Shown here piece by piece: positions 3,234 to 34,801 of a stretch of 35,292 nt of DNA (the first letter of the stretch is position 1; every line of letters starts with the position of its first letter). Location of the stretch: contig JANXAL010000098.1 of NCBI GenBank assembly GCA_025062325.1, positions 1 to 35,292 on the forward strand. Direction: 5' to 3'. The notes beneath the pieces are model-generated. The model searched no databases. It worked only from the letters and a program-made list of their open reading frames with translations, and was not told the DNA's origin. The stretch comes from Roseiflexus sp. (GTDB lineage Bacteria > Chloroflexota > Chloroflexia > Chloroflexales > Roseiflexaceae). The position numbers and the translations under genes were made by a program.

Positions 3234-4607
3234 TCAGGCGACAGCGCCAGCCTCCATTGCGCGTGTAATGTCGGTGCGAGTCAGACCGCGGAAGGCTTCG
3301 ACGCTGACACCCGACAGCAGCGCAATGCCGATGACCATGAGCACCGCTTCGAGACCGAAGATCACGCCATAGCCAAGCGTCTGGCTAAGCGTCTGCGCCT
3401 CGATCAACACCGTGTGGAGCGCGCCTGCCAGGATATTCGCCGCGGCGGTGCCGAACGCCTGCGCCATGCCCCATATGCCCATATACAGTCCTGTAGCGCC
3501 TTCGACGGTCATATCCATCATCAGCGAGAGCGCGCCGACGTTGAACAGACCAGTGCTGACGCCCATCAGCATAATCGCCGGGTTAAGCAGCGCGCGCTGC
3601 TCACTGAGCGCACAGACTGCCAGCAACCCGAGACCGAATGCCGTGCCAATGCCGCCGATCAGGGCAATCAGTTTCTTACTGATCGGAAAGATCGCGCTGA
3701 GCAGGCCCATAATCAGCATGCCGCCAAGCACGGCGCCACCCCACATCTGCGTGAATGTCGTCGTCTCCTTCAGGGTCATTCGGAAGACCTCAGCGCCAAA
3801 GACTTCCAGGATCGAGTCCTGCAGGAAGACGCCGACAATCGAGAGGAAGACAAACCCGAAGAACGCGCGCACTTGCGGATTCTCACGCAGCAAGCCGAAC
3901 GCTGCACGCAGCGGGTTGCCAGAAGGCGCAGCAGCGCGCGCCCGCTCGAGGGCAATCGCCGCTTCCTCGCGGCTCAGGCGCTTTTCAATGCCCAACACAC
4001 CAAGGAGGGCAGAGCCGACCACCACCAGCGGCGTCAGGTTATAGAGCGCCTGCATCAACTCAGGCGTATACGTGGGCATGCGCGCCTTGATCACCGTCGC
4101 AGCGATGATCGTGCTCAGGATCGTAAACGTCCAGACCACCGCAATCACGCCGCCGCGCGTCTTGGAATTGGTCACCTCCGCAATCAGCGCGTGGTGGCAG
4201 TCACCCATAGCGGCAATGCCAATGCCAAAGATGATCAGCAGCACATACCCGGCGACAATCGCCAGTATTGAACCTTCGCCCATGGCCACGGCGACCGAAG
4301 GGAGCGCCAGGAATACCAGGCTAGCGACTGTTGCGCCGAGGAGCAGGTACGGCGTGCGGCGCAGCCCAAAGATGGGACGGCTGTCGGCGATGCGCCCCCA
4401 GATCACCTGGAACGGCGACAGGAAGTGGTGTAGACCGATCATCGTCGTCACGATGACCGCCATGACCCCCAGCTCGACGATCGACACACGATTGAAGTTG
4501 CTGGTGAGCAGGGCGAACATCCAGCCCACCCCCAGTTTGGGCAGCGCCAGGCGCACCACCTTGAGCGCGCCTAGCAAGAACCGACCGATTGCGCGAAGCA
4601 GCTTCAT
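3234..4607 (-). CDS. PucC/LhaA-family transporter (bacteriochlorophyll delivery, MFS superfamily)
   Basis: The 457-residue protein is a polytopic membrane protein with about twelve hydrophobic segments. It fits the PucC family (BCD transporters: PucC, LhaA, Bch2-like), which helps assemble light-harvesting complexes, probably by handling bacteriochlorophyll. Family-like stretches are FNRVSIVELGVMAVIVTTMI, HHFLSPFQVIWGRIAD, FGLRRTPYLLLGA and GLYMGIWGMAQAFGTA. The ATG at 4607 follows GGGAGG with seven bases spacing. It heads the minus-strand run with the methyltransferase (coupled), bchN and bchB, and has a long AT-rich leader. Which PucC-type paralogue it is cannot be decided here. Some members of this family act on other tetrapyrrole-linked steps, so the exact substrate is inferred. 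Confidence 0.88.
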   Translation of the reverse strand: MKLLRAIGRFLLGALKVVRLALPKLGVGWMFALLTSNFNRVSIVELGVMAVIVTTMIGLHHFLSPFQVIWGRIADSRPIFGLRRTPYLLLGATVASLVFLALPSVAVAMGEGSILAIVAGYVLLIIFGIGIAAMGDCHHALIAEVTNSKTRGGVIAVVWTFTILSTIIAATVIKARMPTYTPELMQALYNLTPLVVVGSALLGVLGIEKRLSREEAAIALERARAAAPSGNPLRAAFGLLRENPQVRAFFGFVFLSIVGVFLQDSILEVFGAEVFRMTLKETTTFTQMWGGAVLGGMLIMGLLSAIFPISKKLIALIGGIGTAFGLGLLAVCALSEQRALLNPAIMLMGVSTGLFNVGALSLMMDMTVEGATGLYMGIWGMAQAFGTAAANILAGALHTVLIEAQTLSQTLGYGVIFGLEAVLMVIGIALLSGVSVEAFRGLTRTDITRAMEAGAVA

Positions 4608-26421: not shown

Positions 26422-26595
26422 GGCATAGGAGGGGGGCCGCTCGCAAGGGCAGATTTCTCGGCCAGCTTACGTCGCATCGCCCGTTTTGGGCATCAGAATG
26501 CCCCACTTCCCCTTCCTCACAAGTGGAGATTTTTGCAAGCTCTTACGTCGCACCGCCCGTTTCAGGCGCCAGAACGCCCTACCTTCCCCTTCTCC

Positions 26596-26989
26596 TCCCA
26601 ACCTCCCGCATACGGGGGCACAGGCGCGTCGCGGTTTGAAACGCAGGTGCAACGCCCCCAACTCCCCGCACGCGGGAGGCGCAGGGATGCGAAACTCTCC
26701 GTCCACCTCGCGTAGCCCCAACTCCCCGCACGCGGGAGGCGCAGAGGCCCGCAGCCTTCAATGCGCGTTCGTAGCGCCCCAATCCCTCGCACGCAAGGGG
26801 CGCAGCGGTGCGCGGCGCGTGCGGCGGCGTGCGCGGCAACCCAATCCCCCGCACGCAAGGGGCGCAGTCGCGTCCGGCTGGATCGCCAGGCTCGTAGCGC
26901 CCCAATCCCTCGCACGCAAGGGGCGCAGCGCGTGCACGCTGCGCAGCGTGGAAATCACGTCCCCAATCCCTCGCACGCGGGAGGCGCAG
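26596..26989 (-). CRISPR. CRISPR-like array A: seven 28-29-bp repeats, six spacers of 31-33 bp
   Basis: Repeats start at 26596, 26656, 26716, 26777, 26839, 26900 and 26961. Spacers are 32, 31, 32, 33, 32 and 32 bp. Repeats begin CCCCAAT or CCCCAACT, have a palindromic core of the CTCCCCGCACGCGGGAG kind, and end GGCGCAG. Two sequence types alternate: the repeats at 26656 and 26716 are identical, as are those at 26777 and 26900. The outermost (26596) is the most decayed. Read on the minus strand, the 29-bp length, central hairpin and 32-bp spacers resemble type I-E CRISPRs. Against this, repeats vary, no cas genes are near, and two spacers share an end (CGTAGCG). It may be an orphan, decayed CRISPR or an unrelated palindromic tandem array. 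Confidence 0.5.
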
Positions 26990-27072
26990 GCTCACGCATG
27001 TAGATTTTTTGGCGAGCCCTTACGTTGCATCGCCCGCTTTGAGCGTTAGGATGCGTAAACTCCCCCTTCTCT

Positions 27073-27161
27073 CCCCAATCCCTCGCATGCGGGGGGCGCA
27101 GGCGCGTCGCGGTTTGAAACGCAGGTGCAACGCCCCCAACCCCCGCACGCGGGGAGCGCAG
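27073..27161 (-). CRISPR. CRISPR-like array B: two repeats around one spacer shared with array A
   Basis: Repeats at 27073-27101 and 27134-27161 surround a 32-bp spacer (27102-27133, GCGCGTCGCGGTTTG...) that is identical to the spacer of array A at 26624-26655. MITE left-end sequence separates the two arrays. Either the segment was duplicated or one array was split by element insertion. Confidence 0.45.
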
Positions 27162-27176: not shown

Positions 27177-27350
27177 CTCACAAGTGTAGGTTTTTTGGCA
27201 AGCCCTCACGTTGCATCGCCCGTTTCAGGCAACCGGACGCCCCAACTCCCCCTTCTCCCCTTGTGGGAGAAGGGGGCAGGGGGATGAGGGGAAGATAGGC
27301 GTCGGGACGCCGAAAACGCCCTTGCACCTGAAAAACTCTACCCTTGAGAG
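27177..27350. mobile_element. MITE-like element copy
   Basis: This 174-bp copy starts CTCACAAGTGTAGG and ends CTACCCTTGAGAG. It is inserted next to GGTAGGAGAAG, which resembles the hairpin target of the copy at 35062, but no matching 11-mer follows its right end. A right-half fragment of another copy continues to 27465, ending CTACACCTGAGAG. Confidence 0.65.
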
Positions 27351-27570: not shown

Positions 27571-27927
27571 ATGACTGACGATCTCAGTTTTACCCTCGAC
27601 TTCCCGCCCCACGAACGCGAGACGCTGCTGACCGCGCTCCGCGATGCTGGCGCTGAGGTCCAGGGCGAACCAACCAGGGACATCGACTGGCAGACGGTTG
27701 TGGTGGTCATTGAAAGCATCGGCAAGGTGGCTGGCAGCGTGACGGCGACGATTGAGCTTGCCGAGAAGATAGCCGAGAAACTGAACGCATGGCGCGAGTC
27801 GATGCGCCGCCAGGGGAAGACGCCGCAAGGGGTGCTGCGCCGCCCCAATCAACCGCCGCTCGACCTTTCGATCGCAACCGATGATGAGGTGTTGCGATGG
27901 CTGCTGCGGAATCCGCCGCAACCGTAA
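27571..27927 (+). CDS. Small EACC1-like effector-associated protein
   Basis: This 118-residue protein has an N-terminal beta strand and helix (SFTLDFPPHERETLLTALRD), a central hydrophobic helical stretch (TVVVVIESIGKVAGSVTATI) and a helix ELAEKIAEKLNAW before a short C-terminal part. The size, the pattern and its place directly before a CHAT-STAND gene match the effector-associated constant component 1 (EACC1) of bacterial NTP-dependent conflict systems described by Aravind and co-workers. Sequence identity to that family cannot be checked here. It has no catalytic motif, so it is probably an adaptor or sensor. ATG at 27571 follows AGGAGG with six bases spacing; its end overlaps the next gene by 31 bases. 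Confidence 0.65.
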   Translation: MTDDLSFTLDFPPHERETLLTALRDAGAEVQGEPTRDIDWQTVVVVIESIGKVAGSVTATIELAEKIAEKLNAWRESMRRQGKTPQGVLRRPNQPPLDLSIATDDEVLRWLLRNPPQP

Positions 27928-30728
27928 CGCCGGTGCGCATGCTGGCGCTGATCGCCGCTCCACTGGTGAGTCGGCGCGGGAATGATCTCGTCCCGATCAC
28001 GCTTCTGCCGGCGCAGGAGGAACTGGAGACGCTGGCGGACACCTGCCGGCGCCTCGATGTAGCGCTGGAGATTCAGGCGGAGATTGCGACCGCCGAACGC
28101 ATCGGGCATGTGTTCGCAACCGGGCGCCTGCCCTTCGATCTGCTGCACTTCACGGGGCACGGCAGCCAGGAACTGGACGGCTCGAGCGTCCTGGCGCTCG
28201 AAGATGAGGTCGGCGCCGTCCGCCCGATGGATGCCGCCGAACTGCGCCGGTTGATCGGCAGCCACCCGTGCCGGCTGGCGTTCCTGAGCGCCTGCCACTC
28301 TGCAGGGCTGGCGACCGCGCTCATCGATGCTGGCGTGCCGCACGTCGTCGTGATCAATGCCGCCGATGCGGTGCTCGACCTTGCCGCCAGAGCCTTTGCG
28401 GAGCGCTTCTACGCGGCGTTGCTGGCGGGGCGCACGGTTGCACAGGCGTTCGAGGCAGGGCGCACCGCAGTGGCATCGCACGACGAGCTGCGCGCCTGGC
28501 GCGACCCGCAGACGCTCCAGCCGTACAACCTGCGCGAAGAACTCAAGTTTCGCCTGCTGCCGGAGGGCGATCCGGTTCACCAGCAACCGCTCATTCCGGC
28601 GCCGCCGCGCGGCGCGGTGACGTTCCGCCGCCCACCGTGGGACCGCACCAACCTCAGCCCGGTGAGCGCCGACCCGTTCGTGGGACGCGCGCGCGAACTG
28701 CACGAGATTGCCAGACACCTGCGCACCAACCGCTGCGTCGCCATCCACGGCATGGGCGGGATGGGGAAAACTGCGCTGGCGCTGGCGGCGGCGCGCTGGC
28801 AACGCGAGCGCGACCGCTGGAGCGACGGGGTCTGGCTGGTGACGCTGCGGAACATCGCCAGCGCGCACGAGGCGCGCAACCAGATTGCGCTAGCGCTGAA
28901 CCTGGACCCCAAAGCCGCCGAGAGCGATACGGCGCTCGCCGCAGCCCTGCGCGACCGCCACAGCCTGATCGTTCTCGACGACCTCGACGCGCTGCTGACG
29001 CACGACCGCAGCGGCGCAGCGGCGTTGCTCACGGCATTGCTCGGCGCGCGGCGCCTGACACTGATCACCACTGCACGGCGCGACCTGCCGGGAAGAGTGC
29101 ATCACCAACCGATCGAACTGACGCGCCTCGACCTGCACGACGCACAGATCGCTTTCACCACCTACGCCCCGCCGGTTGACGCCTGGGGAGAGTGGACGCC
29201 GGACGACTGGTTCAATCTCCACCGGTTCCTCGACGGCTACCCCTTCCCCATCCGCCTGGCGGCGACCGCCATGCGCCAGGCGCGCCTGGGGCTGCGCGAG
29301 CTGATCCGGCGGCTGCGGGAGAACCCGCAGGGAACCTTCCGCTACCCCGGCGACGAGGAAGATCGCGAGACGAGCCTGGCGGCGACGCTCGATCTCTCCT
29401 ACGAGCTGCTGCCCGGCGACGCGCAGCAGGCGTTTGCGTGGCTGGCGCTCTTCCCGGCGGGGCTGACGCGCGACGCGGTGCGCGCCATCCTGGGAGCGGC
29501 GAGCGAGACGGCGCTCGAAACGCTGGTGCAGCACAGCATGGCGGAATGGCGCGACGATGGCGGTTACCGGCGGTTCGCGCTGCCGGAACCGGCGCGGCGC
29601 TACGCCGAAGCGCGGCAACCGCCGGATGCGCTGGCGACGTATGCGCCATTGGCGCTGGCATTCTTCGCCGACCTGATCGACGCCGCCGACGACGCCATCA
29701 CCGGCGGCAGGATCGTCGAGGGACGGATGGTTCTTACCCTCGAACAGCCAAACATCGAGCGCTTTCTGGCGTGGGGGTACGACCACGAAGCGGGGAGCGG
29801 CGGGATCAGCCGCGCCGCGCACGCCACGGCGCGGCTGGGGAACTACTGGACGCTGACGGGTGAGCAGGGGCGCCCTGAGATCGAGCAGCGCCTCAGGCGC
29901 GCGCTGACAGCCGCGCAGCGCGCTGGCGACCAGCCCGGCGAAGCCAATGTGCGGAAGGCGATCGGCGACGTGCAGCAGTTCCGCAAGGAAACGACCGCCG
30001 CGCTGGCGAGTTATGAGCAGGCGCTGCGCCTCTACCGCGACGTCGGCGACCGGCTCGGCGAAGCCAATGTGCTGGCGGCGTTGAGTCGCCTGCGCCTCGA
30101 CGATGATCCAGCCGACTCGCGGCATCTTCTTGAACAGGCGCTGGCGCTGCGCCGCGCAATAGGCAGTGTTTACGGCGAAGGCGCCGACCTCGGCAACTAT
30201 GGGATTGCGTTGCTGCAGCGCGGGCGCAGCGCGGAGGCGCTGCCCTACCTGGAACGCGCCCGTGACCTCTTCGCGTCGCGGGGGTTGACGCAGTTGGTGG
30301 AGTATATGGAGCAATTGATTGCGAAGGCGCGTACTGCCGCGCTTCTCGGTCAACTGCCGCCAGCCGTGCGCGCTGCGCTTGAGGCGCAGGACCAGAGAGC
30401 ATTCAATGCCGCCGTTGCTGCCCTGCCACCTGAAGAGCAGCAGCGGATTGGCACAATCCTCCAGGCGCTTGCAGGAGCAGTATCGCTACCTGACCCGCTT
30501 GCACCGTTCGAGCCGCTGCTGGCAGCAATCGCCTCTGTTGCCCGGGGCGACGCAGAGCAGCGTCCGGCAGTCGAAGCAGCGCTCGCCGAACTGGAGACGA
30601 AGGGGTGGATGCTGCGCGCGCCGGTCACGCGTATCTGGCAGGGCGAACGCGATCTGGCATCATTGATTGCGGGTCTCGATGAGCAGGACGCCGCGCTTAT
30701 CCGGCGCGTGCTGGAATTGATTGGGTGA
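27897..30728 (+). CDS. CHAT protease-STAND (NB-ARC) NTPase-TPR protein (NLR-like conflict protein)
   Basis: This 943-residue protein joins three parts. The N-terminal CHAT caspase-like protease (about 14-225) has the catalytic dyad in LLHFTGHGS (His88) and LAFLSACHSAG (Cys133). The STAND/NB-ARC NTPase (about 258-620) starts at DPFVGRARELHEIA. It carries Walker A HGMGGMGKTALAL (285-292), Walker B LIVLDDLD (357-364) and a LTLITTARRDLPG sensor strand, then a winged-helix-like region ending in RFALPEPARRYAEA. The C-terminus has TPR-like repeats (GEANVRKAIGDVQQFRKE, ALASYEQALRLYRDVGDRLG, YGEGADLGNYGIALLQRGR). The design is that of a signalling NLR: TPRs sense, NTPase oligomerises, CHAT cleaves. 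ATG at 27897 with GAGG seven bases upstream overlaps the EACC1-like gene, so the two are translationally coupled. The target is unknown. Confidence 0.88.
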   Translation: MAAAESAATVTPVRMLALIAAPLVSRRGNDLVPITLLPAQEELETLADTCRRLDVALEIQAEIATAERIGHVFATGRLPFDLLHFTGHGSQELDGSSVLALEDEVGAVRPMDAAELRRLIGSHPCRLAFLSACHSAGLATALIDAGVPHVVVINAADAVLDLAARAFAERFYAALLAGRTVAQAFEAGRTAVASHDELRAWRDPQTLQPYNLREELKFRLLPEGDPVHQQPLIPAPPRGAVTFRRPPWDRTNLSPVSADPFVGRARELHEIARHLRTNRCVAIHGMGGMGKTALALAAARWQRERDRWSDGVWLVTLRNIASAHEARNQIALALNLDPKAAESDTALAAALRDRHSLIVLDDLDALLTHDRSGAAALLTALLGARRLTLITTARRDLPGRVHHQPIELTRLDLHDAQIAFTTYAPPVDAWGEWTPDDWFNLHRFLDGYPFPIRLAATAMRQARLGLRELIRRLRENPQGTFRYPGDEEDRETSLAATLDLSYELLPGDAQQAFAWLALFPAGLTRDAVRAILGAASETALETLVQHSMAEWRDDGGYRRFALPEPARRYAEARQPPDALATYAPLALAFFADLIDAADDAITGGRIVEGRMVLTLEQPNIERFLAWGYDHEAGSGGISRAAHATARLGNYWTLTGEQGRPEIEQRLRRALTAAQRAGDQPGEANVRKAIGDVQQFRKETTAALASYEQALRLYRDVGDRLGEANVLAALSRLRLDDDPADSRHLLEQALALRRAIGSVYGEGADLGNYGIALLQRGRSAEALPYLERARDLFASRGLTQLVEYMEQLIAKARTAALLGQLPPAVRAALEAQDQRAFNAAVAALPPEEQQRIGTILQALAGAVSLPDPLAPFEPLLAAIASVARGDAEQRPAVEAALAELETKGWMLRAPVTRIWQGERDLASLIAGLDEQDAALIRRVLELIG

Positions 30729-34384: not shown

Positions 34385-34801
34385 CTCACAGGTGTAGATT
34401 TTTTCCAGCAAGCCCTTGTGTGGCATCGCCTATTTTGAGGGTTGCGATGCGCACACGCCCCCTTCTCCCCGTGTGGGAGAAGGGAGCTAGGGGGACGAGG
34501 GGCACACAGGCGTCAGGACGCCCCAACGCCCCCTTCTCCCCGTGTGGGAGAAGGGAGCTGGAGGGATAAGGGGAAAAAGGGCGTCAGGACGCCCCAACGC
34601 CCCCTTCTCCCCGTGTGGGAGAAGGGGGCAGGGGGGATGAGGGGAAAAGAGCGCGTCAGGATGCGCACCCGCCCCCTTCCCCCCAACCCCTCGCATGCGG
34701 GGGGCGCAAGGGGGTGGGCGAAGGGGACCGGGGGATGAGGAAAAAAGGGCGTCGGGACATGGCAAACACCCATCGCACCCCAAAAACTCTACACTTGTGA
34801 G
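34385..34801. mobile_element. MITE-like element expanded by internal tandem repeats
   Basis: The 417-bp copy starts CTCACAGGTGTAG and ends CTACACTTGTGAG. Between its ends, the hairpin and flanking sequence are repeated about four times with 70-71-bp period (units starting at 34455, 34526, 34597 and 34667). The last unit has a CRISPR-like repeat at its hairpin tip (34681-34709). No matching 11-mers flank it. Confidence 0.7.

Follow-up and report, generated by a model that had tools for sequence, protein, structure and literature searches.

Array layout and the carrier element

The stretch of DNA analysed here (the window) comprises 35,292 nucleotides (nt) of a Roseiflexus sp. contig and holds two short repeat arrays that look like clustered regularly interspaced short palindromic repeats (CRISPR) and are set inside copies of a miniature inverted-repeat transposable element (MITE); we argue that the MITE palindrome probably served as an off-target site for spacer integration. 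There are nine palindromic repeats, seven at 26597-26989 (array 1) and two at 27074-27161 (array 2), with repeats of 27-28 nt, spacers of 32-34 nt and a period of 60-62 nt, which bears out the CRISPR-like spacing described in a first-pass annotation of this DNA. Its two repeat sequence types are also real, but they do not alternate; in array 1 they run in blocks, with repeats 2-3 of type A, repeats 4-6 of type B and repeat 7 a B/A hybrid. A 28-nt degenerate consensus matches nine sites in the window, including a lone one at 34682-34709, and 0 in 100 shuffles (the degenerate first repeat of array 1 scores below the threshold and so stands outside this count). Array 2 has a single spacer (27102-27134), and its sequence is that of the opening spacer in array 1 (26624-26656); this shared spacer, the lone repeat and the genome-wide family described below all go beyond that annotation.

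The annotation had placed MITE ends against both arrays and no cas genes near them, and both statements held. Ends resembling terminal inverted repeats (TIRs) lie at 26516, 26991, 27177 and 27332 (the window has 14 TIR-like sites, with none expected by chance), so that arrays 1 and 2 occupy successive MITE copies and the copy that follows them lacks the repeat. Cas1, Cas3-HD and type I-E Cas2 are without a match on the contig. A scan against Rfam gave nothing but sub-threshold, microRNA-like chance matches.

The repeat is part of a dispersed MITE family. In this genome (G000, 4.73 Mb; congeners are numbered G001 to G005 and contigs carry C numbers) the 28-nt pattern occurs at 87 sites with up to three mismatches, as against 0 for the reversed pattern, usually in the order MITE arm ending CCCCCTTCTCCC, repeat, GGGGGTGGGAGAAGGGGG. 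The repeat consensus, CCCCAACCCCCCGCATGCGGGGGGCGCAG, sits in the loop of the central hairpin of the element and has a 7-bp stem and a 4-nt loop, while in some MITE copies the loop of this hairpin is short and the repeat is missing (e.g., at 27248-27276 of the window). As is usual for MITEs, the element is short, non-coding and dispersed, with TIR-like ends, and its copy on C143 is missing from the orthologous site in congeners. The pattern is present in G002 (Roseiflexus sp. SKYG45) and G005 and in neither G001 nor G004; G003 has two matches, both single and both outside MITEs, and there were 0 among the 34 genomes searched outside the genus. An exact scan of 84,980 species genomes for the degenerate pattern gave just three stretches: Roseiflexus sp. 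SKYG45 accounts for two of them and a Chloroflexota metagenome-assembled genome for the third.

Other hairpins of the same family form ordinary minisatellites, one in the window at 34455-34660 (MITE hairpin ACGCCCCCTTCTCCCCGTGTGGGAGAAGGG in tandem, 71-nt period) and one of about 75-nt period at C143 (L073:2519-3128), both of which repeat the gap sequence as well. When L073 2515-3140 is set against L225, the junction of the MITE insertion points to a target duplication of unusual length whose copies have diverged (GATTGGCATCTT / GATTGACGTTTC). Directly downstream of the window arrays, at 27897-30728 (+), a 943-aa protein with CHAT, STAND/NACHT-type NTPase and TPR domains is encoded, possibly a defence or regulatory protein. 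The features of the window are listed in Table 1.

Table 1. Repeats, spacers and MITE copies in the window
Feature	Positions	Strand	Remark
MITE left arm, array 1	26516..26596	+	TIR-like CTCACAAGTGGAGATTTTT, arm end CCCCTTCTCCTC; arms of this kind stand before the repeat at dozens of loci
Array 1 repeat 1	26597..26623	+	most degenerate; CCCAACCTCCCGCATACGGGGGCACAG
Array 1 spacer 1	26624..26656	+	same as array 2 spacer
Array 1 repeat 2	26657..26684	+	type A; CCCAACTCCCCGCACGCGGGAGGCGCAG
Array 1 spacer 2	26685..26716	+	32 nt; exact 20-nt core without match in viral contigs
Array 1 repeat 3	26717..26744	+	type A; same as repeat 2
Array 1 spacer 3	26745..26777	+	
Array 1 repeat 4	26778..26805	+	type B; CCCAATCCCTCGCACGCAAGGGGCGCAG
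Array 1 spacer 4	26806..26839	+	34 nt
Array 1 repeat 5	26840..26867	+	type B variant
Array 1 spacer 5	26868..26900	+	
Array 1 repeat 6	26901..26928	+	type B
Array 1 spacer 6	26929..26961	+	
Array 1 repeat 7	26962..26989	+	type B in the left half and type A in the right
Left arm of next MITE copy	26991..27073	+	TIR-like end 26991-27009
Array 2 repeat 1	27074..27101	+	
Array 2 only spacer	27102..27134	+	same as array 1 spacer 1
Array 2 repeat 2	27135..27161	+	
Repeat-free neighbour MITE copy	27177..27350	.	TIR-like both ends; hairpin CCCCCTTCTCCC-cttgt-GGGAGAAGGGGG at 27248-27276
Further MITE copy	34385..34801	.	single repeat 34682-34709, an unexpanded site

Growth of the arrays in place

The loci inspected comprise 33 arrays and 29 single repeats, with 31 of the arrays in this genome and two in G002, where there is a 3-repeat array with the same spacing. 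This genome thus has at least 31 array loci, each of 2-7 repeats, with about 56 distinct spacers between them. The unit is 61 nt: the period is exactly 61 in 39 of the 64 gaps between repeats and 60-62 in 56 of them. Repeats of one array lie on average 3.43 edits apart, although in several arrays (C93, C143, the middle of C111 and C457 of G002) they are identical; permutation gives 4.86 edits, and none of the 500 permuted sets came as low as the observed value. Since the repeat variants are locus-specific, the arrays grew in place. Spacers of different arrays reach a best identity of 19/32, leaving aside the C141/C105 pair and the shared window spacer, and because they are both unrelated and unshared, the arrays neither travelled with the MITE nor are minisatellites. 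Ordinary tandem duplication was rejected on the same ground, the gaps being unrelated except for a single unit doubled in C111 and the spacer common to both window arrays.

One pair of loci stands apart: the array at L036 (C141) 3581-4034 and that at L037 (C105) 1-423 share an end spacer and have diverged middle spacers. They look like a single long array broken by assembly; a strain polymorphism of the array is also possible.

The repeat number differs at one orthologous site. The MITE with a single repeat at C101:31790 of this genome has, in C176 of G002, five repeats and four spacers; the two loci are 91.6% identical over 764 nt of flank and have in common the locus-specific repeat variant CCTCAAC. 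They were compared by interval length, the insert having misled a global MAFFT alignment: the interval measures 61 nt at C101 and 302 nt at C176, and once a 1-nt deletion and a further difference of 2 nt are allowed for, the excess is 244 nt, or 4 x 61.

Two spacers reproduce parts of host genes exactly. Spacer 1 of C97 repeats without a mismatch 35 nt of an antiporter-like gene that lies on C23 of this genome, and it begins with AAG. The third spacer of C176 in G002 is likewise a perfect match to a 5'-nucleotidase-like gene, on C430 of that genome, its first base being the G of a genomic AAG (both gene names were read off the translations rather than assigned by protein family). AAG, the protospacer adjacent motif (PAM) of E. 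coli type I-E, stands at the 5' end of both source matches, as AA|G plus a 33-nt insert in C176 and as AAG plus 32 nt in C97. In E. coli type I-E, prespacers are 33 bp long and start, at position +1, with the G of AAG, which accompanies about 40% of naive spacers (PMC6282206). Host-derived spacers such as these fit adaptation without interference.

The spacer ends are also biased. Among the 46 cleanly bounded spacers, 44 have G first or C last where about 25 are expected, and 2 have neither where about 21 are expected; a first G and a last C tend to replace each other (Fisher p 0.013), as would be seen if a PAM-derived G were kept at one spacer end in either orientation. The test was picked after the data had been seen and the MITE itself has C before the repeat and G after it, so we take this bias as supporting evidence only.

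Writing of the arrays and its possible authors

A constant fragment of about 33 nt, unrelated from one insertion to another, next to a duplicated palindromic target of about 28 nt is the product of Cas1-Cas2 integration, and we know of no other process that copies a target of about 28 nt and inserts about 33 nt. As integration at the MITE palindrome would predict, the palindrome is doubled around a spacer-sized fragment of known origin at C97 and at C176 of G002, and C101 is the unexpanded counterpart of the expanded C176. Off-target (non-canonical) integration by E. coli Cas1-Cas2 in vivo, giving neo-CRISPR loci, is described for Nivala et al. (2018) in the accounts given by PMC11788318 and PMC9456107. 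IHF-like motifs and an inverted repeat reportedly attract such integration, and Cas1 of Sulfolobus islandicus binds stem-loops by preference (PMC9456107). From the form of the product, the known off-target activity and the binding of stem-loops, we infer that Cas1-Cas2 acted at the MITE palindrome, which would have been recognised through its stem.

The type of the enzyme is suggested by geometry. G003 carries a complete type I-E operon (Cas1e at E 1e-113, Cas3, Cse1, Cse2, Cas7e, Cas5e and Cas6e) beside an array of period 60-62, whereas arrays at its other Cas1 loci run at about 67, 74 and 73, and an array beside Cas1 on C81 of this genome runs at 75-81. Among the cas-linked arrays measured in the genus the 61-nt period of the MITE arrays is therefore matched by type I-E only, in agreement with the geometry proposed by the first-pass annotation. 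The likeness extends to a repeat of about 28-29 nt, inserts of about 33 nt, the AAG at both known protospacers and the fold, since the MITE repeat consensus and the G003 I-E repeat (ATTGTCCCCACGCCCGTGGGGGTGAACCG) both form a 7-bp stem with a 4-nt loop. Two diverged repeats of the window fold no better than shuffles, so the argument from the stem rests on the consensus and not on every copy. Apart from the stem, the MITE-array repeat is unrelated to the I-E repeat; it is degenerate, is found at dozens of loci, and has neither cas genes nor a known leader nearby.

We consider it probable that the MITE palindrome was an ectopic target for spacer integration by a type I-E-like Cas1-Cas2, and that the neo-CRISPR arrays arose in this way. 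Events would have run as follows: a MITE family carrying a CRISPR-like palindrome in its central hairpin loop would have spread single copies of it over the genome by transposition, and a type I-E-like Cas1-Cas2 would have treated many of these as CRISPR repeats; each event would have copied the local repeat of about 28 nt and inserted a prespacer of about 33 nt, sometimes host chromosomal DNA, and the outcome would be neo-CRISPR arrays of 2-7 repeats with a 61-nt period. The writing enzyme would then be the Cas1-Cas2 of type I-E, presumably once present in the lineage and perhaps since lost or missing from the assembly.

Several observations weigh against this explanation. I-E Cas2, Cas1e and an I-E-like Cas3 were not found in this genome, nor were I-E cas genes found in G002, G004 or G005, and the two genomes that do have I-E-like Cas1 and Cas3, G001 and G003, are both without MITE arrays; the module may have been lost, be variable among strains, or be missing from the fragmented assemblies (143 and about 600 contigs). 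The MITE repeat has nothing obvious in common with the G003 I-E repeat outside the stem, and the comparison with cas-adjacent arrays that the first-pass annotation had proposed gave no match at the cas loci examined in the genus. The evidence for expanded and unexpanded orthologs comes from one pair, in which the direction of change is not polarised, so that repeat loss in G000 is possible. A secure source is known for just 2 of 62 spacers, and these two differ in the phase of the AAG and in length (33 and 35 nt). The end-base pattern, for its part, could be partly inherited from the MITE flanks. Searches for a viral, phage or plasmid origin of the spacers, also suggested at first pass, yielded no convincing source in the minority of spacers that they took in: BLAST against plasmids and phages with the array and 14 spacers gave no matches, and neither did 20-nt cores against viral contigs for six of seven spacers, the viral match of the seventh being rejected at 23/33 bases.

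In other searches, a scan of viral contigs for the repeat gave no match, and further self-protospacers in the host genome were not found for the subset of spacers tried. Spacers also gave borderline matches in relatives, at 81-88% identity and in many cases spanning artificial joins in the concatenated query; these were treated as chance.

Alternatively, the MITE could have captured the repeat or array of a lost type I-E (or I-F) system whose pieces were then scattered by transposition and breakage, which is close to the first of two options in the first-pass annotation, an old CRISPR scattered by MITEs. The CRISPR geometry, the failure to find I-E cas genes in the host and the MITE ends inside the window cluster are what such a relic would leave, but the repeat stands single in many MITE loops, its variants and the arrays are locus-specific, and no spacers are common to different loci, the split C141/C105 array and the neighbouring arrays of the window excepted, from which it follows that the arrays did not move along with the MITE. 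The lack of a cas-adjacent array with this repeat at the cas loci examined in the genus counts here too, as does the genome scan, whose three stretches are all from Chloroflexota, and we therefore think a relic unlikely. The second option, that the palindrome is part of the element and amplified with CRISPR-like spacing, comes near but leaves out the writer. An unknown MITE recombination or replication process that duplicates the palindrome with a constant gap of about 33 nt would find a parallel in the minisatellites of period 71 (window) and about 75 (C143) formed by other hairpins of the family; those tandems, however, keep their gap sequence, whereas the gaps of the 61-nt arrays are unrelated and two of them are exact copies of distant host genes. 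Unrelated, partly host-derived inserts fit Cas1-Cas2 integration and not self-amplification, and a process of this kind seems to us quite improbable.

The spacers might instead have been written by another adaptation module of this genome, since the only Cas1 genes found in the assembly are those of a Cas1-Cas2-Cas4 module on C29, a reverse transcriptase-linked Cas1 on C7 and a Cas1 on C81. Arrays beside Cas1, however, run at 75-81 (C81) and at about 67, 73 and 74 (G003, whose loci resemble these modules in their Pfam scores), none of them at 61, and we judge such an authorship very unlikely. The Cas1 gene on C7 (L109, 5212-7560) adjoins a group II intron-type reverse transcriptase open reading frame, with no array seen on the contig, and C29 (L110, 4502-4823) has a 23-nt tandem repeat in ten copies.

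Relation to known systems and significance

CRISPR arrays and off-target integration are both of known kinds, the latter known mainly from overexpression of Cas1-Cas2 and from a few natural cases. That CRISPR repeats come from transposable elements is a hypothesis, and the birth of new arrays is an open question. As far as we have found, a transposable element that supplies the integration target at dozens of sites is undescribed in the open-access literature. In the neo-CRISPR loci of Nivala et al., as the accounts cited above present them, spacers likewise enter genomic sites other than the canonical array, where new CRISPR loci may be founded; compared with what is presented there, the target here is a repeated MITE palindrome, with at least 31 arrays in a single genome and up to 7 repeats per array, in an uncultured lineage.

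Other combinations of MITEs and repeats are on record. A Porphyromonas gingivalis MITE with an internal minisatellite (PMC4596501) also has a repeat array inside a MITE, but in a minisatellite it is whole units that recur, whereas here the spacers are unrelated and partly copies of host genes. Haloquadratum walsbyi HBSQ001 (PMC3119063) likewise has a MITE with CRISPR sequence in a genome without cas genes, but there the MITE was inserted in one CRISPR remnant, while here the repeat is a component of the MITE itself and arrays are found at many places in the genome. It has been hypothesised that ancestral CRISPR repeats derive from casposon TIRs or target sites (PMC6452270); mobile-element DNA acting as a CRISPR repeat is common to both cases, but that event would be ancient and concerns another type of element, while here we have a present-day MITE, with no casposase seen and none looked for.

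We make no claim of immune function, and both present-day activity of the MITE arrays and any immunity from them are unproven. The broader proposal, that the MITE is a transposable seed of CRISPR arrays, with a palindrome that suffices for a type I-E-like integrase to begin them at dozens of sites and partly from host DNA, and so a present-day instance of repeats derived from a transposable element, we put forward tentatively, as something possible that we would not yet call probable. Dozens of arrays at defined single-repeat start sites, together with an unexpanded ortholog, make the sequence rules of array birth directly readable and testable. CRISPR finders may list such MITE arrays as orphan CRISPRs, and the MITEs themselves could be decoys for the adaptation machinery.
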